From positions 1-37,228 of the forward strand of contig JAFYWI010000013.1 in NCBI GenBank assembly GCA_017558105.1: a DNA stretch of 37,228 nucleotides, in the 5' to 3' direction. Of the stretch, positions 9,808 to 21,603 are shown piece after piece (positions within the stretch are counted from its first letter, which is position 1; each line of letters starts with the position of its first letter). The translations under genes and the position numbers were made by a program. The notes beneath the pieces are model-generated. The model saw nothing but the letters and a program-made list of their open reading frames with translations. It did not search any database and was not told where the DNA came from. This stretch comes from Clostridia bacterium (GTDB lineage Bacteria; Bacillota; Clostridia; Christensenellales; Borkfalkiaceae).

Positions 9808-10404
9808 TTATTTAATTTTATTATAAGAAAATAGTAAAACGGTTAATACTTGTAATGGAATACCAATTAAAAATATAACCCAAAGTGTAATTGGTGGATT
9901 AGCAAGTGCATATAACAAAGTTAAATAAACTGATAAAAGCACCGTCCAAACCAAAAGGGAAGTTATAATTAAGTTGGTTAAAGATTTACCCCATATTGCC
10001 GTTAAAATTAATAAAATTAAGAACGTAATTGGTATTGCGTATATAAAAGAAAGCCAAGTATGTATAATGCCGGGGAATAATAAAGTAATAAAAGAATATG
10101 CACAAATGGCAACAAGCCAAACTAATATTGCAGAAAATAATGCTATTATAATTCTTTTTTTAGAAAGGTTTTTAATAGAATTTTTTTGTTTTTTAGGGTG
10201 TTCGCTTATAAGAAAGTCTATCGTAACGCCATAAAAATCTGCAATTTGTTTTAATACAGTTAAATCTGGTGTAGATTCGCCCCTTTCCCATTTAGAAACA
10301 GCCTTGTCGGAATAGTTTAATTTTTCGGCAAGTTCTGCCTGGGTTAAAGATAAAGATTTTCTTAGATTTATTAAATTTTCGCTTAAATTTTGTTTGATAT
10401 CCAT
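9808..10404 (-). CDS. Membrane-anchored XRE-family transcriptional regulator (paralogue 1)
   Basis: The 198-residue protein joins a Cro/C1-type helix-turn-helix (about 10-64, core LTQAELAEKLNYSDKAVSKW) to four predicted transmembrane helices at about 84-108, 116-138, 143-166 and 172-194. Such fusions are inferred to sense a membrane condition while bound to DNA near the membrane; the ligand is unknown. It is a close paralogue of the gene at 12298-12888, with almost the same HTH recognition region and the same IWGK-LLVWT-LLSVY-type membrane pattern. It is divergent from the DegV-like gene. Upstream it has a good promoter and an inverted repeat (10478-10500) also found before its paralogue. GAGAG upstream of the ATG is a plausible ribosome site. 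Confidence 0.88.
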   Translation of the reverse strand: MDIKQNLSENLINLRKSLSLTQAELAEKLNYSDKAVSKWERGESTPDLTVLKQIADFYGVTIDFLISEHPKKQKNSIKNLSKKRIIIALFSAILVWLVAICAYSFITLLFPGIIHTWLSFIYAIPITFLILLILTAIWGKSLTNLIITSLLVWTVLLSVYLTLLYALANPPITLWVIFLIGIPLQVLTVLLFSYNKIK

Positions 10405-10427
10405 AAAAATTTACTCTCGTTACACTT

Positions 10428-10456
10428 ATTTTAGCAAATTTTAATAAAAAAAGCAA
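10428..10456 (-). promoter_or_regulatory. Promoter of XRE regulator 1
   Basis: On the - strand, -35 TTGCTT (10451-10456), a 17-base spacer and an extended -10 TGC-TAAAAT (10428-10433). The predicted start near 10421 gives a leader of about 17 bases containing GAGAG. Confidence 0.7.
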
Positions 10457-10477
10457 CAAAAATAGATTAAAAAAATT

Positions 10478-10500
10478 CAATTCTACAGTTGGTAGAGTTG
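10478..10500. promoter_or_regulatory. Inverted repeat, candidate operator for the XRE regulators
   Basis: CAATTCTAC at 10478-10486 and GTAGAGTTG at 10492-10500 form 9-base arms with one mismatch around a 5-base centre. The core TCTAC-N5-GTAGA recurs exactly upstream of the paralogous regulator at 12940-12954. It lies about 22 bases upstream of the -35 box of regulator 1 and about 60 bases upstream of the DegV gene's -35 box. Binding by the regulator is an inference. Confidence 0.55.
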
Positions 10501-10558
10501 CAAAAAATAATTCTATATTTCGTTTTTAATCTTTATAGCTGTAAATCTTATAAGTAGG

Positions 10559-10587
10559 TTGATTATTTTATACTAGTAAAATAAAAT
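10559..10587 (+). promoter_or_regulatory. Promoter of the DegV-family gene
   Basis: -35 TTGATT (10559-10564), 17-base spacer, -10 TAAAAT (10582-10587). AAAGGAG follows at about 10595-10601, before the ATG at 10611. Confidence 0.7.
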
Positions 10588-10610
10588 GTTATTAAAAGGA
10601 GAAATAATTT

Positions 10611-11450
10611 ATGAAAATTGCAATATCAGCAGAAAGCACAGTAGATTTAACTAAAGATTTACTTAATAAATATAGCGTTTCTACAATTCCATTTAGCATA
10701 TATTTAGGTGAAGAAAATAAGTTAGATGGTGAAATTAAAACGGAAGAAATTATAGATTACGTTAATAAATATAAAATCCTTCCTAAAACTGGGGCAGTTA
10801 ACCAAGAAAGTTTTAAGGAACATTTTACTAACCTTCTAAGCGAATACGATGGTGTTATTCATTTTTCCTTGTCTTCGGAAATGAGCTCTGCCTACAATAA
10901 TGCAGTAAGTGCATCTAAAGAATTTGATGGCAAAGTGTACGTTGTGGATACTAGAACGTTATCTACGGGCATTGCGCTATTATGTTTGTATGCGCATAAT
11001 CTTGCAAAAGAAGGTAAAGAACTTAAACAAGTTTACGAAGAAGTTATTAAAAAAATACCAAAAGTACAAGCTAGTTTTGTATTAAATAGGTTAGATTATT
11101 TATATAAAGGTGGTAGGTGTAATAGTTTAGTGTATTTTGGTGCTAACATATTAAAAATAAGGCCACAGATAGTTGTTAAAGATGGCAAAATGATTTCTGG
11201 AAAGAAATTTAGGGGCAACTTTAATTACGTTGTAGATTGTTATTGTAAGGCTGTTTTAGAAGAAAACCCTAATCCAGATTTATCCGTTGCATTTTTAACA
11301 TATACAACTGCAGAAGAAAGTGTTATTAATTGTACGTTGCAACACTTAAAAGATGCTGGCTTTAAGGAAATTTATATAACGCAAGCAGGTGGAACAATAA
11401 CAAGCCATTCTGGAGAAAATTGTTTAGGAATTTTATTTATGAATAATTAG
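10611..11450 (+). CDS. DegV family fatty-acid-binding protein (FakB-like)
   Basis: DegV/FakB proteins bind a fatty acid and present it to the kinase FakA for phosphorylation; a fakA gene is present at 19975. The 279-residue protein has the family layout: a start with AISAESTVDLT, PKTGAVNQESF, the acyl-carboxylate-binding Ser region HFSLSSEMSSAY, VVDTRTLSTG, and the RLDYLYKGGRCNS hinge typical of DegV. It is a single gene with its own promoter and terminator, divergent from a membrane XRE regulator. A role with FakA is family knowledge; fatty-acid preference cannot be read from the sequence. Confidence 0.92.
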   Translation: MKIAISAESTVDLTKDLLNKYSVSTIPFSIYLGEENKLDGEIKTEEIIDYVNKYKILPKTGAVNQESFKEHFTNLLSEYDGVIHFSLSSEMSSAYNNAVSASKEFDGKVYVVDTRTLSTGIALLCLYAHNLAKEGKELKQVYEEVIKKIPKVQASFVLNRLDYLYKGGRCNSLVYFGANILKIRPQIVVKDGKMISGKKFRGNFNYVVDCYCKAVLEENPNPDLSVAFLTYTTAEESVINCTLQHLKDAGFKEIYITQAGGTITSHSGENCLGILFMNN

Positions 11451-11464
11451 AAAATAAAATATAG

Positions 11465-11496
11465 GGCGGTAAAATTTACTGCCTTTTTGTTTTTTT
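11465..11496 (+). terminator. Terminator after the DegV-family gene
   Basis: Stem GGCGGT with ACTGCC (one G-T pair, extendable by AAA/TTT), followed by a T-rich run to 11496. Confidence 0.82.
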
Positions 11497-11566
11497 GATT
11501 AAATTATAATAGACTAATCTTGTTAAAAGTAGTATAATTTTAATATAAAGCTTATTGGGTTTGATT

Positions 11567-12241
11567 ATGAGAATTAGAAGAAGAAAACATCTTGAAGAAA
11601 GACTTGAAAAAATTAAAGACTATATTATTATTGCAGACAAAAAACAAGTTAACGTTTTAGAAGCGCTTAAAGATAAGAAATATATTGATTTTGCTAAAGA
11701 ATTTGGCAATAATAACCCAATATGTTTAGAAATTGGCTGTGGAAAAGGTAAATTTATAATAGAAAAGGCAAAACAAAACCCTAACGTAAACTATATTGCC
11801 GTTGAAATGTTAGAAAACATTATTTTAATTGCTTGTGAAACTGCAAAAGAAGAAGGGTTGAAAAACGTTAAATTTATTAACTCTGGCGCAGAATATTTAA
11901 GAAGATATATAAAAGAAAATAGTATTAATGAAATTTACTTAAATTTTTCTCCACCATATCATAAAAACGGTTATGAAAGTAGAAGGCTTTCTAACGAAAG
12001 GTTTGCTAAATCATATTTTGAAATGTTAATTAATGGTGGTAAGTTAATACAAAAAACAGACGATAAAATTTTCTTTGACTACTCTTTTGAAAAGTTTTTA
12101 GAGTGTGGCTTTAAGGTTGTAGACGTTAGCAATGAACTTTATTTGCCAAACTCAACTAATATTATTACCGAATATGAAAGCAAGTGGCTTTCACTTAATA
12201 TGCCAATATATTCTTTGCATGCAATTAAACAACTTAAATAA
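11567..12241 (+). CDS. TrmB-like tRNA (guanine-N7) methyltransferase with altered active-site motif
   Basis: TrmB enzymes methylate G46 of tRNA using S-adenosylmethionine. I chose the ATG at 11567 (protein MRIRRRKHLEERL, 224 residues) because TrmB proteins usually start with such a basic segment; an in-frame TTG at 11555 is less likely. The SAM loop EIGCGKGKF is at 55-63, KTDD at 163-166, and the C-terminal TEYESK matches the family's TxYExK. However, the signature that is normally DPWPKKRHxKRR reads SPPYHKNGYESRR at about 128-140, so the usual Asp is Pro, the Trp is Tyr and the His is Tyr. It may be a diverged but active TrmB, or a paralogue with another substrate. It has its own downstream terminator. 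Confidence 0.8.
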   Translation: MRIRRRKHLEERLEKIKDYIIIADKKQVNVLEALKDKKYIDFAKEFGNNNPICLEIGCGKGKFIIEKAKQNPNVNYIAVEMLENIILIACETAKEEGLKNVKFINSGAEYLRRYIKENSINEIYLNFSPPYHKNGYESRRLSNERFAKSYFEMLINGGKLIQKTDDKIFFDYSFEKFLECGFKVVDVSNELYLPNSTNIITEYESKWLSLNMPIYSLHAIKQLK

Positions 12242-12244
12242 AAA

Positions 12245-12270
12245 AAGCACACCTTAAACTAGGTGTGCTT
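12245..12270. terminator. Bidirectional terminator between trmB-like and XRE gene 2
   Basis: AAGCACACCT (12245-12254) pairs perfectly with AGGTGTGCTT (12261-12270) around a 6-base loop. An A-run on the left gives a U-run for the - strand transcript, and TTATTTATT follows on the right. Confidence 0.85.
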
Positions 12271-12297
12271 ATTTATTGATAGGTTTAAAACAAAATT

Positions 12298-12888
12298 TTA
12301 TCTTTTTTTATTAACTTTTAATTGAGACCACAATATAATTGCTATTTGACCAGGTACTCCAATTATAAAAATTGCCCAAGGATTGTATGCAAAAAAATAG
12401 AAATAAATGCTTAACAAACACGTCCAAACCAGTAGGGAAATTATCAAATAATTATACCTTCTTTTGCCCCAAATAGAATTAAATATTAATAAAACTACTA
12501 AAGAAAAGGGCACTGAGCATACGAATAAAAACCAGTTGTTAGTATTATTTAATAAAATTCCATATATGTATAAAACAGTTGCGATAAGCCATATTAACGA
12601 AACTGCTAATAAAGTAATTGCTAATTTATTATACCTATTTTGTTTGTTGTTATAAATTTTATCGTAATTATCTTCGTAATTTTCGTTAATAATGTAATCT
12701 ACCGAAACTTCGTATAATTCGGCAAGTTGTTTAAGCACGTCTATAGGTGGCGTAGTTTCGCCGTGTTCCCATTTGGAAACCGTTTTATCGCTATAATTTA
12801 GTTTTTCTGCAAGTTCTGCCTGTGTTAGTTTACGTTCTAACCTTAATGCTGTTAAATTGCTTGCAATTATTTGTTTTGTTTCTTTCAT
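12298..12888 (-). CDS. Membrane-anchored XRE-family transcriptional regulator (paralogue 2)
   Basis: This 196-residue protein has the same architecture as the product of 9808-10404: an N-terminal Cro/C1-type HTH (about 10-64, core LTQAELAEKLNYSDKTVSKW) and four hydrophobic helices between about 88 and 188. The stretch from LTQAELAEKLNYSDK to the end of the HTH is nearly identical between the two, so they probably recognise the same DNA. The membrane parts have diverged more, which suggests different signals. The linker (about 68-86) is rich in Asn, Asp, Tyr and Lys. The -10 box ends 6 bases before the ATG, so the mRNA is predicted to be leaderless. The gene is divergent from the GT8/acyltransferase operon. 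Confidence 0.87.
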   Translation of the reverse strand: MKETKQIIASNLTALRLERKLTQAELAEKLNYSDKTVSKWEHGETTPPIDVLKQLAELYEVSVDYIINENYEDNYDKIYNNKQNRYNKLAITLLAVSLIWLIATVLYIYGILLNNTNNWFLFVCSVPFSLVVLLIFNSIWGKRRYNYLIISLLVWTCLLSIYFYFFAYNPWAIFIIGVPGQIAIILWSQLKVNKKR

Positions 12889-12894
12889 ATTTGT

Positions 12895-12923
12895 ATTTTA
12901 GCACTTTTTTTATTAAAAATCAA
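12895..12923 (-). promoter_or_regulatory. Promoter of XRE regulator 2, predicted leaderless
   Basis: On the - strand, -35 TTGATT (12918-12923), 17-base spacer, extended -10 TGC-TAAAAT (12895-12900), then ACAAAT and the ATG. The expected start nucleotide coincides with the A of the start codon (12888), and no Shine-Dalgarno sequence is present. Confidence 0.7.
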
Positions 12924-12939
12924 CATTTTCTACGCATTT

Positions 12940-12954
12940 TCTACACTTAGTAGA
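12940..12954. promoter_or_regulatory. Inverted repeat, second copy of the candidate XRE operator
   Basis: TCTAC (12940-12944), 5-base centre ACTTA, GTAGA (12950-12954), followed by GTT as in the first copy at 10482-10496. A further TTTTCTAC half-site lies at 12926-12933. It sits 17 bases upstream of the -35 box of XRE regulator 2. Confidence 0.55.
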
Positions 12955-13037
12955 GTTTATTTTTTATGTCTCGGGGGTTGAGAATTTGTGTTGCGTATTT
13001 TTCAACCTTGATTTTTAATTTAGAGAGAACAAAAAAC

Positions 13038-13066
13038 TTGTTTTAGTTTGTTGTTTGTAATAAAAT
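13038..13066 (+). promoter_or_regulatory. Promoter of the GT8/acyltransferase operon
   Basis: -35 TTGTTT (13038-13043), 17-base spacer, -10 TAAAAT (13061-13066). The start near 13073 leaves a leader of about 55 bases before the ATG at 13128, and rules out a GTG start at 13071. Confidence 0.65.
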
Positions 13067-13127
13067 TAAAGTGCAAGTATGTTGCAAAAATAAAATAAAT
13101 AAATTTTATTACTCACTTGGAGAACTT

Positions 13128-14072
13128 ATGGCAAACAATAATTTAAAAGAAATTCCAATTGTTTTTTCAGTTGACGATAACTATGCACCTTTTTTAGCAG
13201 TTGCGTTAACTTCTATTTTAGAAAATTCATCTAAAGAAAATTTTTATAAATTTTTTGTTCTTAATACTGGCATAAGCGAAGAACATATTAAAAGGTTAAG
13301 TGCTTATAATACACCCAACTCTTCTATTGAATTTGTAAACGTTGTAGATAGGCTTAACTCTATTTGTTATAAATTACATTTAAGAGATTATTATACGCAA
13401 ACAATTTATTTTAGGTTTTTTATTCCGGCACTATTTTCGCAATACAAAAAAATTCTTTATTTAGATTGCGACGTTGTGTTATTACAAGACGTTGCTAGTT
13501 TATATAACGTTGAATTAGGCAATAATGTTATTGCAGCTATACACGAAGAAACAATGTCTAACGTAAAAGTTTTTGGCGATTATTCTGAAGAGTTTTTAGA
13601 CGTTCCTAAAATGGAATATTTTAATTCTGGCATTTTATTAATTAATACAGAAAGATATATGGAATTAGATATTGAAGGTGGGTTTATTAAACTTTTAGCA
13701 GAACATAAATTTGAAGTTGCACCAGACCAAGATTATTTAAACGTTTTATGTTCTGGCAACGTTAAATATTTAGATATTGGTTGGAACAAAACTCCATTTA
13801 AGAATATTGAATTTAATAGAGAAGACTTAAAACTTGTTCACTACAAATTAAACTTTAAGCCTTGGCATTACGACGACGTTTTGTATGGTGAATATTTTTG
13901 GGATTTTGCTAGCAGAACTTCTTATTATAACGAACTTATTGATATGCAAAAATCGTTTACAGATTTAGACAAGAAAAATGATGAAATTGCATATAAAAAA
14001 TTACAACAAACGGCACAAGACTATATCAATTGTGCAAGAAATTATAAAAAAATGAAGTTAGGGATTATATAA
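13128..14072 (+). CDS. Glycosyltransferase family 8 protein
   Basis: GT8 enzymes are retaining transferases that use a nucleotide sugar and a divalent metal. The start at 13128 is chosen because TTGGAGAAC precedes it and the predicted transcript starts near 13073; the open frame continues further upstream but has no ribosome site there. The 314-residue protein begins with IPIVFSVDDNYAPFLAVALTSI, the typical GT8 strand-loop-helix, has the metal-binding DxD as DCD at 113-115, FNSGILLIN in the acceptor region, DQDYLN, and a late HYKLNFKPWHYDD carrying the second metal ligand His. No transmembrane helix is visible, so it acts in the cytoplasm or at the membrane surface. It overlaps the next gene by one base. 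Donor and acceptor cannot be told from sequence; a lipid acceptor is suggested by the two acyltransferases that follow. Confidence 0.9.
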   Translation: MANNNLKEIPIVFSVDDNYAPFLAVALTSILENSSKENFYKFFVLNTGISEEHIKRLSAYNTPNSSIEFVNVVDRLNSICYKLHLRDYYTQTIYFRFFIPALFSQYKKILYLDCDVVLLQDVASLYNVELGNNVIAAIHEETMSNVKVFGDYSEEFLDVPKMEYFNSGILLINTERYMELDIEGGFIKLLAEHKFEVAPDQDYLNVLCSGNVKYLDIGWNKTPFKNIEFNREDLKLVHYKLNFKPWHYDDVLYGEYFWDFASRTSYYNELIDMQKSFTDLDKKNDEIAYKKLQQTAQDYINCARNYKKMKLGII

Positions 14073-14905
14073 TGCAATCTAACGAAAGGTTAAAAGTTTT
14101 AGAAAAAATTGAATATTTAGAAAAAACTTGCCAATGGGACAAAGACGTTGAAGACGACCCTATAACAATAGAACTAAAACCAGATAAGGTAGATTATTTA
14201 TGTGAAAAGTTTGGTTCTAAATTAATTAATAAAATTGCTAACAGGGTGGCAATTAACCACTTTGAAAAGCAAATTAAAAAGGGCGCTTTTACTATTAAAG
14301 AAGTTCGTGGCTACGAAAATTATTTAAGCGTTAAGGGTGGCGCTATTTTAACTTGTAATCATTTTAGCCCTTACGATAACTATGCCGTTTATAGAACTAT
14401 AAAAAAAGACCTTGGCCCAAGCAAATGCTTATATAAAGTTATTAGAGAAGGCAATTACACAAACTTTAAGGGGCTTTACGGCTTTTTATTTAAGCATTGC
14501 AACACTTTGCCACTTTCTAGTAACATTGTTACAATGAAAAAGTTTATGGGTGCGCTAAAGATTTTGCTTTCTCGTGGTGAAAAAGTTTTAATTTACCCAG
14601 AACAAGCAATGTGGTGGAATTATAAAAAACCAAGGCCAATGAAAAACGGCGCATTTCAATTAGCAGTTAAAAATAACGTTCCAATTATACCTATTTTTAT
14701 TACCATGGAAGATAGCGATATTTTAGATGCAGATGGTTTTAATACTAAAATTTACACAATGCATTTTTTAAAGCCAATTTTTCCAAGGGCAGAGCTTTCG
14801 CAAAAAGATAATATAGAATTTCTAAAAGAAGAAAACTATAGGGTGTGGAAAGAAACGTACGAAGAAGTGTACGGCTTAAAATTGGAATACTTAAAGGAAG
14901 AATAA
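14072..14905 (+). CDS. PlsC-like (1-acyl-glycerol-phosphate acyltransferase family) acyltransferase
   Basis: The catalytic Hx4D motif is NHFSPYD, with His 97 and Asp 102. The substrate motif normally FPEG reads YPEQ at 175-178, and NNVPIIPIFI near 201-210 is the fourth conserved block. The 277-residue protein has about 90 residues before the Hx4D motif, more than plain PlsC, and no convincing transmembrane helix. It probably transfers an acyl chain onto a lipid or sugar-lipid acceptor at the membrane face. The start overlaps the GT8 stop (TAATG) and its own stop overlaps the next start, so the three proteins are made together. A general PlsC role is possible, but the Glu-Gln change and the context suggest a specialised acceptor. 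Confidence 0.82.
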   Translation: MQSNERLKVLEKIEYLEKTCQWDKDVEDDPITIELKPDKVDYLCEKFGSKLINKIANRVAINHFEKQIKKGAFTIKEVRGYENYLSVKGGAILTCNHFSPYDNYAVYRTIKKDLGPSKCLYKVIREGNYTNFKGLYGFLFKHCNTLPLSSNIVTMKKFMGALKILLSRGEKVLIYPEQAMWWNYKKPRPMKNGAFQLAVKNNVPIIPIFITMEDSDILDADGFNTKIYTMHFLKPIFPRAELSQKDNIEFLKEENYRVWKETYEEVYGLKLEYLKEE

Positions 14906-15501
14906 TGTTATATTTAATAATTATTTTATCTGCAATGGCATTAATTTCAATAGTAAATATTCTGCTTAACCAAATTTTATTTAATTTAGAATTGTGGTAT
15001 ATTTTACTTGCCGTTGTTGTTAACACCGTTGCAGTAATTGCCATTTCTGGTTTATTTGCCTTTATAATTAGGCATCTTCTTCCAGCCAAATGGTTTTCTG
15101 CCGATAATAAGTTTTTTTTCGTTAGTAAAAAAGAGTGCAAGTTTTACGAAAAACTTGGCATAAAAAAATGGAAAGATAAGGTTTTAGAGCTTGGATTTTT
15201 TACTGGGTTTAGTAAAAGTAATATGCAAGATTCGGCTAATAAAGAATACGTAGAAAGGTTTATTTTAGAAAACAACTATGGTATGGTAGTTCACTTTGTT
15301 GGTATGGTAGTTAGTTTTTCTATAATATTTATTTATCCACTTAAATTTTGGTGGATGTTTGGTTTACCCGTAGCATTAGTTAGTATGTTTTTACATTTAC
15401 TTCCATTTTGCATTTTAAGGTATAATTCTTGTAAATTACACAGGTTACGTCAATTAAATATTAGAAAAGAAAAACAAAAAAATAAAACTGAAGAAAATTA
15501 A
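14905..15501 (+). CDS. CrtO-like membrane acyltransferase family protein
   Basis: The 198-residue membrane protein starts at the ATG overlapping the previous stop (TAATG, with AAAGGAAG upstream); the frame is open further upstream but inside the acyltransferase gene. Two transmembrane helices lie at about 2-20 and 30-55 and two more at about 128-170. Between them is the segment FYEKLGIKKWKDKV, followed by SNMQDS and a conserved-looking FILENNYGMVVH. This pattern resembles the glycosyl-4,4'-diaponeurosporenoate acyltransferase (CrtO) family, whose Staphylococcus member acylates a sugar on a carotenoid. No carotenoid gene is in the window, so here the acceptor is likely a different glycolipid. 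The family assignment is from recognition of the motif pattern and would need a profile search. Confidence 0.62.
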   Translation: MLYLIIILSAMALISIVNILLNQILFNLELWYILLAVVVNTVAVIAISGLFAFIIRHLLPAKWFSADNKFFFVSKKECKFYEKLGIKKWKDKVLELGFFTGFSKSNMQDSANKEYVERFILENNYGMVVHFVGMVVSFSIIFIYPLKFWWMFGLPVALVSMFLHLLPFCILRYNSCKLHRLRQLNIRKEKQKNKTEEN

Positions 15502-19583: not shown

Positions 19584-19934
19584 ATGTTCGCCAAAACAAA
19601 TAACATATACGGAAAAATAACAATTTCAGACAGAACGATTGCAAAATTCGTTTCCCGTGTGGCAACAGATTGTTATGGTATAGTTGAATTTGTACCGAGT
19701 AGTTTAATCGACTCGGTTATTGGTTTTTTAAAATTTCATCACGAATATAAGGGCATAAAAGTACACTCTACTGGCGACAGAATTTTTATAGACGTTGCTG
19801 TAATTGTTAAATATGGTGTATCTATAAAGGCAGTTGTAGAAGCGTTGAAAGAATCTGTTAAATACAAAGTAGAAAAATTCACTGGTATGATAGTAGATAC
19901 TATAAACGTAAGTGTTAAAGGGGTTAAACTTTAA
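19584..19934 (+). CDS. Asp23/Gls24 family envelope stress protein
   Basis: A small protein (116 residues) of the Asp23/YloU family. The pattern GKITISDRTIAKFVSRVATDCYGIVEF at the start (positions 10-36) and the VAVIVKYGVSIKAVVEALKESVKY block followed by VDTINVSVKGV is typical. Family members attach to or regulate near the cell envelope; the one before fakA is conserved across Firmicutes with unknown exact role. The start at 19584 fits GTGAGGTG and the promoter at 19530-19558. Confidence 0.93.
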   Translation: MFAKTNNIYGKITISDRTIAKFVSRVATDCYGIVEFVPSSLIDSVIGFLKFHHEYKGIKVHSTGDRIFIDVAVIVKYGVSIKAVVEALKESVKYKVEKFTGMIVDTINVSVKGVKL

Positions 19935-19974: not shown

Positions 19975-21603
19975 GTGCAAAAAACGATAAACGGAGCTAT
20001 GCTAAAATCCATGGTGGTTACGGCAGCAAAGCTTTTAGAGATAAATAGAGTAAAAATAGATGCATTAAACGTTTTCCCAGTTCCCGATGGAGATACTGGT
20101 ACAAATATGTCTTTAACTTTCCAATCTGCAATGAAAGCATTAATGAACTGTCAAAATAATTCTGTAAGTGAAATTACAGAATACGTTTCAAAAGGTGCTT
20201 TGAGGGGTGCGAGAGGAAATTCAGGTGTTATTCTTTCACAAGTTCTTCGTGGATTTTGTAACACGCTTAAAAACAATGAAGAAATAGATACAAGATGTTT
20301 TGCCCAAGCATTAATGGCTGGTGCAGAAATAGCATACGGCGCCGTATCTAAGCCAAAAGAAGGCACGATGCTTACCGTTGCCAGAATGGTTGCAGAACAC
20401 GCTATGAGTATTAGAAATAAGCATAAAGACTTTGAAACTTTCTTTGCAGAAATTATTAAGAAAGGTAACGAAGCCGTAGAACTTACACCATCTTTACTTC
20501 CTGTTCTTAAAAAAGCAGGCGTAGTAGACGCCGGTGGCAAAGGGTTAATGTGCTTATACGAAGGTATGTACAAGGCTATTATTGGCGAAACGGTTAGTGG
20601 CGACGTGGTTGTTTCTGATACTAAATCTTCAGAAACTGCTATGGAACATGCAGATATTATGAGTTTAGGTCATATTGAATTTGCTTATTGTACTGAATTC
20701 TTTATTGTTAACCTAAAAAAGAAAACGACTTTAGCAGATATTGAAAGATTAAGAGAAACTTTAATGACTTTAGGCGACTGCGTTATAGTTATTGGCGACT
20801 TAGAGTTAGTAAAAGTTCACGTTCACACAAATCAACCTGGTGTTGCTCTAACAAAAGCACTAGAACTTGGTGAATTAGATAAACTTAAAATTGAAAATAT
20901 GCTAGAACAAAATAGGGCATTAATGCGCAAATACGAAGAACAGAAAAAACCTATGGGTATGATGGCTGTTTCTGCAGGCGAAGGCATTAGTGGCATATTT
21001 AAAGATTTAATGGTAGACGCCGTTATAGAAGGCGGACAATCTATGAACCCTTCTGCTAGTGATATTGCAGATGCCGTTCAAAGAATAAATGCAGAAAACG
21101 TTTTCGTTTTCCCAAATAATAAGAACATTATTTTAGCGGCAGAACAAGCAAAATCGTTAGTAGAAAACAAGCGTTTACACGTTATTCCTACAAAAAATAT
21201 TCCACAAGGTTTTTCTGCGGCAATCGTGTTTAACCCAGAACTTTCTGTAGACGAAAATAAAACTAATATGATACACGCTATGGACTCTGTTACCGTTGGT
21301 CAGGTTACATATGCGGTTAGAAATACTAAAGTAGACGGGTTCGACCTAAAAATTGGCGACATTATGGGGTTAGACAACAAGAAAATTCTTGCAAAAGGCA
21401 AAGATATTAGCCTTGTAACCTTAAATCTAATAGAAAAATTGCGTAGCAACGAAGAACTAATTACTCTTTACTACGGGCAAGACGTTAAAGAAGAAGATGC
21501 ATTGGCATTGCAAAAAATTATTCAAGAAAAATACCCTAGTTGCGACGTTGAAGTTCACTATGGTGGACAGCCAATTTATTACTACTATATAGCATTAGAA
21601 TAA
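19975..21603 (+). CDS. fakA: Fatty acid kinase catalytic subunit FakA (DAK2 domain protein)
   Basis: ATP-dependent kinase that phosphorylates fatty acids carried by DegV/FakB proteins, giving acyl phosphate for phospholipid synthesis. The GTG start follows AATAGGAG. The N-terminal DhaL/DAK2 domain has the metal triad in DGDTGTN (Asp 38, Asp 40, Asn 44) and GARGNSG. The middle domain keeps Cys 239 and His 282, His 284 (in VHVH), matching the zinc ligands described for Staphylococcus FakA. The C-terminal domain is the DegV-like fold. Length (542) is normal. It lies between asp23 and recG, the usual Firmicutes order. The likely partner is the DegV-like protein at 10611. Confidence 0.95.
   Translation: MQKTINGAMLKSMVVTAAKLLEINRVKIDALNVFPVPDGDTGTNMSLTFQSAMKALMNCQNNSVSEITEYVSKGALRGARGNSGVILSQVLRGFCNTLKNNEEIDTRCFAQALMAGAEIAYGAVSKPKEGTMLTVARMVAEHAMSIRNKHKDFETFFAEIIKKGNEAVELTPSLLPVLKKAGVVDAGGKGLMCLYEGMYKAIIGETVSGDVVVSDTKSSETAMEHADIMSLGHIEFAYCTEFFIVNLKKKTTLADIERLRETLMTLGDCVIVIGDLELVKVHVHTNQPGVALTKALELGELDKLKIENMLEQNRALMRKYEEQKKPMGMMAVSAGEGISGIFKDLMVDAVIEGGQSMNPSASDIADAVQRINAENVFVFPNNKNIILAAEQAKSLVENKRLHVIPTKNIPQGFSAAIVFNPELSVDENKTNMIHAMDSVTVGQVTYAVRNTKVDGFDLKIGDIMGLDNKKILAKGKDISLVTLNLIEKLRSNEELITLYYGQDVKEEDALALQKIIQEKYPSCDVEVHYGGQPIYYYYIALE

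Follow-up and report, generated by a model that had tools for sequence, protein, structure and literature searches.

An inverted repeat shared by twin membrane-anchored XRE regulators and acyl-lipid genes in Clostridia

We analyzed a 37,228-nucleotide stretch of DNA from a Clostridia bacterium (GenBank assembly GCA_017558105.1, contig JAFYWI010000013.1, positions 1 to 37,228; hereafter, the window). It carries two genes for membrane-anchored XRE-type regulators, XRE-A and XRE-B, each preceded by the same inverted repeat and each divergent from a gene related to acyl lipids. The locus comprises the following features:

9808..10404, minus strand: XRE-A, an open reading frame (ORF) with an N-terminal Cro/C1-type helix-turn-helix (HTH) at residues 13-65 (HTH_3, E=1.2e-16) and about four C-terminal membrane helices
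10479..10499, no strand: operator 1, a 21-bp AAYTCTACYNNNRGTAGARTT-type site with core 10482-10496, position weight matrix (PWM) score 25.6, kept in orthologues
10611..11450, plus strand: degV, DegV/FakB-type fatty-acid-binding protein (PF02645, E=1.1e-52)
12298..12888, minus strand: XRE-B, the second membrane-anchored XRE, an ORF with HTH_3
12937..12957, no strand: operator 2, core 12940-12954, PWM score 20.4
13128..14072, plus strand, ATG at 13128: GT8 glycosyltransferase (PF01501 Glyco_transf_8, E=1.2e-46)
14072..14905, plus strand: PlsC-like acyltransferase (PF01553 Acyltransferase, E=4.7e-14)
14902..15501, plus strand: CrtO-type acyltransferase-like membrane protein (PF18927 CrtO, E=9.9e-22)

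A preliminary description of this DNA had reported two minus-strand ORFs with like HTHs and four C-terminal membrane helices, each divergent from a plus-strand gene and preceded by an exact TCTAC-N5-GTAGA core that continues with GTT. All of these features were confirmed. HTH_3 matches both proteins well above its curated cut-off of 23 bits (60.9 for XRE-A and 59.5 for XRE-B), four hydrophobic segments are evident in each, and identity between the two is 47% across residues 3-196 of XRE-A. The divergent partners, degV (10611) opposite XRE-A and the GT8 operon (13128) opposite XRE-B, match Pfam DegV, Glyco_transf_8, Acyltransferase, and CrtO. The degV product scores 179.5 bits against PF02645 (cut-off 27) and lies above the cut-off of TIGR00762; because it reaches 91 bits with the FakB1 equivalog model, below the cut-off of 350, we did not assign it to FakB1. 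Both cores are exact and followed by GTT, and the two copies of TCTAC-N5-GTAGA, whose fuller form is AAYTCTACYNNNRGTAGARTT, compare with 0.02 expected in the window.

The preliminary description had also named two checks on the repeat, its frequency across the genome and its conservation upstream of orthologous regulators, and it passed both. The assembly (1.07 Mb, 85% complete) holds three exact cores, each upstream of an XRE gene, and no copy of the reversed pattern; the third is 110 bp ahead of the start of a 599-aa XRE in which no membrane segments were detected. This protein (L072:3126-4925, genome C4) has an SDKAVSKWE helix and no recognized sensor domain, and about nine helical turns (94.5 bp) separate its predicted transcription start from the operator centre. 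A scan of the same genome allowing up to three mismatches (49 sites vs. 13 reversed) was set aside, as AT-rich near-matches could not be separated from chance. Orthologues were scored in 25 genomes of the same genus using a PWM trained on 21 XRE-A sites, with a match threshold of 14 for XRE loci. A match lies upstream in 23 of 24 XRE-A loci, 22 of which have a divergent degV, and the exact core is found upstream of XRE-B in 5 of 10 loci. In the other five XRE-B operators (L135-L139), one arm has changed from GTAGA to approximately NGAGA, and the outer TCT...AGA is kept.

Across the 25 genomes, the exact core occurs 62 times vs. 13 for the reversed pattern. We read 60 of these sites in context in addition to the two in the window, assigning the classes by hand: XRE-A or XRE-B accounts for 26, other XREs for 3, DegV genes for 6, GT8 genes for 3, and a GDSL hydrolase for 1. 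The remaining 23 have other settings, among them coding DNA, hairpins, and rplV leaders. Copies inside frames that we take to be citrate-synthase-like and RelA/SpoT-like, having recognized them by eye, and those in rplV leaders were not counted as operators, since the core recurs there because these genes are conserved; two other sites are hairpins.

The six DegV and three GT8 genes, like the GDSL hydrolase gene, have no membrane XRE beside them. These bare exact operators support the preliminary proposal that one operator serves both regulators and is tied to membrane-lipid genes. We examined 86 DegV genes (92 rows, less six partial ones): 29 have an upstream site scoring at least 12.8, and the other 57 score 3.4 or less. 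XRE-A adjoins 22 of the 29 and is not adjacent to seven. In the shuffled null, 7.7 marked the 99% point and the highest score was 18.6 (1 of 1720 shuffles), so single weak sites such as that at G002:C10 (12.8) are doubtful. XRE-B or its relative is the neighbour of 11 of the 15 strong GT8 genes; 1 lies at a contig edge, and 3 have a bare operator (G003, G016, and G018). The genus homologue search listed no XRE-B-type match for these three genomes (96, 95, and 76% complete), and XRE-A is therefore the likely reader at their GT8 genes. Because the operator is shared, each twin probably acts at the other's promoter; the cross-regulation suggested in the preliminary description is thus likely.

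Beyond the genus, we took the best 80 of at least 471 relatives; 3 proved to be genus members, leaving 77 that are at most 52% identical to the genus proteins (79 of the 80 were compared, L314 lying outside the alignment). In 53 of the 77 loci, the membrane XRE has the operator no more than 330 bp upstream, and in 57 the operator lies upstream of the XRE, DegV, or GT8 gene. As a control, it was found at 6 of 321 other ORFs of the 80 loci, and these six comprise a site that was counted twice, three DegV genes, and a GDSL hydrolase. DegV is present in 25 of the 77 loci (26 of 80 with the genus members) and GT8 in 3. A FakA-like gene adjoins DegV in L249, L277, L291, and L308, as well as by profile match in L348, L350, and L353, and in L343 it and the XRE are direct divergent neighbours. 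GDSL hydrolases are present in L260, L264, L296, L310, L312, and L320, and an AMP-binding enzyme is present in L266. Eight loci, which form one group within the family (L253, L257, L273, L279, L293, L299, L303, and L304), have a downstream protein of ∼334-367 aa, which in L253 has no Pfam match.

We also drew 246 genomes evenly from the class. A strict 19-bp pattern matched at 14 sites, spread over 10 genomes, vs. 2 for the reversed pattern. Seven lie at an XRE or DegV gene: three at membrane XREs, of which one separates the XRE from its DegV; one at a DegV gene elsewhere; and three at other XREs. The other seven lie elsewhere, four of them in G156 contexts without interpretation. Full-length membrane XREs outside the genus were found at 17 loci in 15 genomes (E<1e-55, a cut chosen after the gap to 3.9e-29 was seen); 8 adjoin DegV, 3 GT8/CrtO, and 1 FakA alone, together 12 of 17, and the operator is present at 8. 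At least one locus is common to both samples from outside the genus, since L250 and L342 show the same sequence. Operators also occur in trans: in G251, from another genus, the operator stands before degV (L331) and the XRE lies on a different contig (L345), and an operator far from any membrane XRE also occurs in another family (L147, G032). The operator is, therefore, common to HTH genes and acyl-lipid genes, namely DegV/FakB (sometimes with FakA), the GT8-PlsC-CrtO operon, and GDSL hydrolases, and the arrangement of operator, XRE, and lipid gene is conserved.

Promoter positions, like PWM scores, are computed predictions. The window contains the following promoters and additional half-sites:

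10428..10433 (-10 box) and 10451-10456 (-35 box), minus strand: predicted XRE-A promoter TTGCTT-17-TAAAAT
12895..12900 (-10 box) and 12918-12923 (-35 box), minus strand: predicted XRE-B promoter TTGATT-17-TAAAAT
10559..10587, plus strand: predicted degV promoter TTGATT-17-TAAAAT, start 104.5 bp from the operator centre
13038..13066, plus strand: predicted GT8-operon promoter TTGTTT-17-TAAAAT, start 125.5 bp from the operator centre
10512..10516, plus strand: degenerate third half-site TCTAT, +30 toward degV, a weak match that is exact TCTAC in many relatives
12929..12933, plus strand: additional TCTAC half-site, lying between operator 2 and the -35 box of XRE-B, read from the sequence

The matching TTGxTT-17-TAAAAT promoters described earlier are thus present at both regulators. 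The distances from the nearest operator arm to the -35 box had been given as about 22 and 17 bases, from which different control of the two genes was suggested; the coordinates give 25 bp for XRE-A and 16 bp for XRE-B. Measured from the operator centre, the predicted starts lie at 67.5 bp (XRE-A) and 58.5 bp (XRE-B), approximately one helical turn apart, and spacings across the family likewise differ by about whole turns, so that spacing is poor evidence for different control. Predicted regulator promoters throughout the family have TTG-type -35 boxes, 16-18 bp spacers, and TAWAAT-like -10 boxes. In many families and at most XRE-A and XRE-B loci, 6-7 nt separate the -10 box from the ATG (6 nt for XRE-B of the window), and these regulator mRNAs are therefore predicted to be leaderless; XRE-A of the window is exceptional, with 23 nt.

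On the regulator side, distances from operator centre to predicted start cluster at about 46.5, 57, 68, and 79 bp, with a phasing of R=0.75 at 10.5 bp (n=61). Keeping one value per cluster gave R=0.67 at 60% identity (n=28) and R=0.62 at 50% identity (n=18, p=0.0013). On the target side, 51 of 60 targets with a site have a predicted promoter, or 50 after removal of one duplicate locus (L234 = L270). Their starts lie at 104.5-107.5 bp in 22 of 50, at 124.5-126.5 bp in 11, and at 146.5 bp in 2 (R=0.70; R=0.85 for the 17 outside the genus). Many DegV regions also have extra half-sites ∼21 and 42 bp from the operator toward the target gene, on the same DNA face. GTAGA is commonest at -20 or -21; on the target side, one lies 17-32 bp away in 54 of 80 regions, and 32 of the 80 have an additional TCTA[CT] 18-24 bp further out. 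Half-sites number 99 over 4430 bp of target side vs. 13 over 5728 bp of regulator side, and the polarity is the same at DegV and GDSL targets in trans.

To the recognition helix, (S/T)DK(A/S/T)VSKWE, we related the operator sequence. All 101 aligned family members match HTH_3, and Lys34 in this helix is invariant in all of them. A simple code equating any A[VI]SKWE helix with TCTAC did not hold (Fisher p = 0.11 and 0.38). Its failures led to a post hoc rule for other XREs of the genus, in which the residue before AVSKWE/AVSRWE, at the position of Lys34, varies with the operator: Q goes with TCAAC-N5-GTTGA and K with TCTAC. Six of seven unselected Q proteins have a TCAAC site scoring at least 9 (the seventh scores 8.6), two of three unselected K proteins have TCTAC, and R proteins are mixed; Q-type XREs with TCAAC-N5-GTTGA upstream include L372, L381, L378, L375, L371, and L379. 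In an independent set of 34 XREs from other families, scored with base 3 masked, 4 of 11 Q proteins exceeded the 95% null (7.0), 3 of these with CAAC arms, and the R proteins gave one of each operator type. This set supports the Q half of the rule and so gives partial support to the whole, which is a possible XRE-operator code of wider use. The covariation of recognition-helix residue and operator base points to the XRE HTH as what reads the site. In other families, XREs with TPR repeats or a PfkB-type kinase as fusion partner (L328, L336) likewise have the operator upstream.

The membrane part of XRE-A and XRE-B shows four hydrophobic segments in family-averaged hydropathy and obeys the positive-inside rule, with positive charge in the linker, middle loop, and tail; both protein ends are therefore predicted to be cytoplasmic. 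With predicted membrane helices fused to the DNA-binding domain and no separate kinase, both proteins qualify as transmembrane one-component regulators. The four-helix domain looks like a duplicated hairpin, its two hairpins aligning with each other in hhalign (probability 93.5%, E 2.4e-7, 51 columns), values that hydrophobic composition may inflate. Pfam membrane families each matched 7 of the 101 members at most, and the 36 matches in the PDB all fell on the HTH region, with no solved structure over the membrane domain. Given this lack of a Pfam membrane family across the set and the apparent internal duplication, the domain is a candidate new lipid-sensing fold. None of the named XRE families of NCBIfam scored above its curated cut-off (best, RstR, 60.7 bits vs. 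80).

BcrR, the bacitracin regulator of Enterococcus faecalis, has an N-terminal XRE-type HTH, and its site is GACA-N7-TGTC; here, by contrast, the operator is TCTAC-N5-GTAGA, and the regulators precede an operator of their own. According to the accessible parts of its description, BcrR is a one-component regulator with a four-helix membrane domain that acts from the membrane (PMC13384398, PMC3968067). XRE-A and XRE-B, with an N-terminal HTH and about four C-terminal membrane helices, resemble it in architecture, a likeness drawn from the description of BcrR only. Whereas BcrR senses bacitracin and controls bcrAB, the divergent genes here are degV and GT8-PlsC-CrtO. A search for a BcrR-like protein in a plasmid collection gave partial matches only, and the one that was opened (H38, L370, from a bacteriocin region) was not BcrR.

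From these sequence comparisons, we consider it fairly probable that XRE-A and XRE-B are BcrR-like one-component membrane regulators that bind the operator, regulate themselves, and activate the DegV/FakB and GT8-PlsC-CrtO genes. The cytoplasmic XRE-type HTH would be tethered by the four-helix membrane domain, dimers would occupy the palindrome through the recognition helix on one DNA face, and neighbouring molecules would fill the extra phased half-sites. Such an array could touch RNA polymerase in a class-I-like manner, activating both the target gene and the regulator's own gene, as BcrR does on bcrAB. Activation is favoured over simple blocking because the operator lies upstream of the -35 box with helical-step spacing. 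More tentatively, the nature of the target genes suggests that the membrane domain may respond to bilayer state or to a signal derived from fatty acids; fatty-acid uptake and glycolipid genes would then track membrane composition. In its broadest form, the proposal would be a widespread lipid-sensor family working on one DNA face, with half-sites at 0, 10, 31, and 52 bp, phased promoters, control of FakB/FakA, GT8-PlsC-CrtO, and GDSL genes across several Clostridia families, leaderless autoregulated mRNAs, and cross-regulating paralogues; to this extension, we give slightly less than even weight.

Several observations weigh against activation by the membrane XREs through this operator. The operator was not found in 24 of the 77 external loci or at 9 of the 17 class-sample loci, and many external neighbours are not lipid genes (EamA, ABC, or unassigned). 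Within the genus, one of the 24 XRE-A loci (L095) is without an operator, 5 of the 10 XRE-B operators have diverged (PWM 4.3 to 13.4), and seven more distant homologues (L140-L145, L148) have no site scoring 14 or more. The genus scores for XRE-A and DegV are, moreover, partly circular because the PWM was trained on XRE-A sites, a circularity that does not touch the nonadjacent DegV, GT8, and external loci. The half-site array is degenerate in the window, where there is only the TCTAT at +30, and it is absent at all five exact XRE-B sites. As for the residue rule, L328 contradicts it as a Q protein with TCTAC, and the independent set bears on its Q half, the four K proteins there having no site. 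Finally, other XREs (the 599-aa protein and those fused to TPR or PfkB) lie behind the same operator; the membrane XREs are therefore perhaps not its sole binders, and XREs with these other domains may compete for it.

The same proteins and operator could instead bring about repression, with degV, GT8, and the regulator's own gene held down by looping or by blocking of the polymerase and released on a lipid change. Looping is a possible mechanism, the half-sites on one face fit it as well, the XRE promoter is close to the operator (45-80 bp), and many XRE proteins, such as SinR and CI-type regulators, are repressors. We nevertheless regard repression as rather unlikely, given that the operator is sited ahead of the -35 box and does not cover the promoter, that it shifts by whole turns like class-I activator sites, and that BcrR, the closest architecture, stimulates transcription in the accessible text of its description (PMC13384398). 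It is quite improbable that a different regulator, either an XRE sharing the helix or an independent lipid regulator, reads the operator and the membrane XREs are merely its targets. Such a reader would explain why other XREs of the genome and genus (L072, L091, L096) sit behind the operator and why G007 has trans sites though its own XRE-A is without one; yet the site follows membrane XREs across families (53 of 77), helix residue and operator base covary, partly in the independent set as well, Lys34 is invariant (101 of 101), and G003 and G016 keep the GT8 operator with no XRE-B-type match listed. Plain local autoregulation, with the XRE pair controlling itself and its neighbour and the lipid theme a coincidence, is the least credible explanation: divergent regulator-target pairs are common and some family members stand beside EamA transporters, ABC proteins, and other nonlipid genes, but operators at DegV, GT8, and GDSL genes lie far from membrane XREs, also in another genus (G251) and family (L147, G032), and DegV adjoins 8 of the 17 unselected members.

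Activation by membrane-tethered XREs has partial parallels. ToxR, CadC, and TcpP have winged-helix DNA-binding domains and mostly single membrane helices. These and other surveyed transmembrane regulators are, like XRE-A and XRE-B, membrane-tethered one-component proteins, and the available text proposes that they respond to the membrane environment (PMC10269533); the terms "XRE" and "HTH_3" do not appear in the accessible main text of that survey. Closest in function is FasR/SPV_0647 of Streptococcus pneumoniae, whose gene, like that of XRE-A, diverges from a fakB-type gene, fakB3; fakB3 is down in the mutant, so that control is apparently positive, and it differs in belonging to the TetR family, with no XRE HTH reported in the portion available (PMC12647141). 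FabT, which fits fatty-acid genes to exogenous fatty acids, is a soluble MarR-type repressor of fatty acid synthesis that senses acyl-ACP and, in the accessible sections, reportedly leaves the fak genes of E. faecalis outside its control (PMC12594616). The preliminary statement that no described system has this layout thus stands for the operator, regulon, and array, of which we found no description in the literature searched (most subscription papers lie outside it), but not for the protein architecture, which is that of BcrR in the part of its description at hand (PMC13384398). The arrangement suggests a way for the membrane to control its own lipid genes that is undescribed in that literature, which also gave no account of the control of exogenous fatty-acid use (FakAB) in the uncultured Clostridia examined. 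If the proposal is true, the regulator, operator, and predicted regulon could be searched for in any genome, and the family would offer a test case for membrane-tethered DNA reading, the one-face, helically phased array being a pattern that tethering might impose.

One further gene of the window bears on fatty-acid use:

19975..21603, plus strand: FakA-like fatty acid kinase (YloV above cut-off; Dak2, FakA-like_M, and FakA-like_C domains)

Its score with the FakA_VfrB model is 524 bits, below the cut-off of 975. A half-degraded operator-like site (19764-19784, PWM 15.4), which may be due to chance, lies within the gene just upstream. The kinase is likely the partner of the DegV/FakB protein and a candidate member of the regulon.

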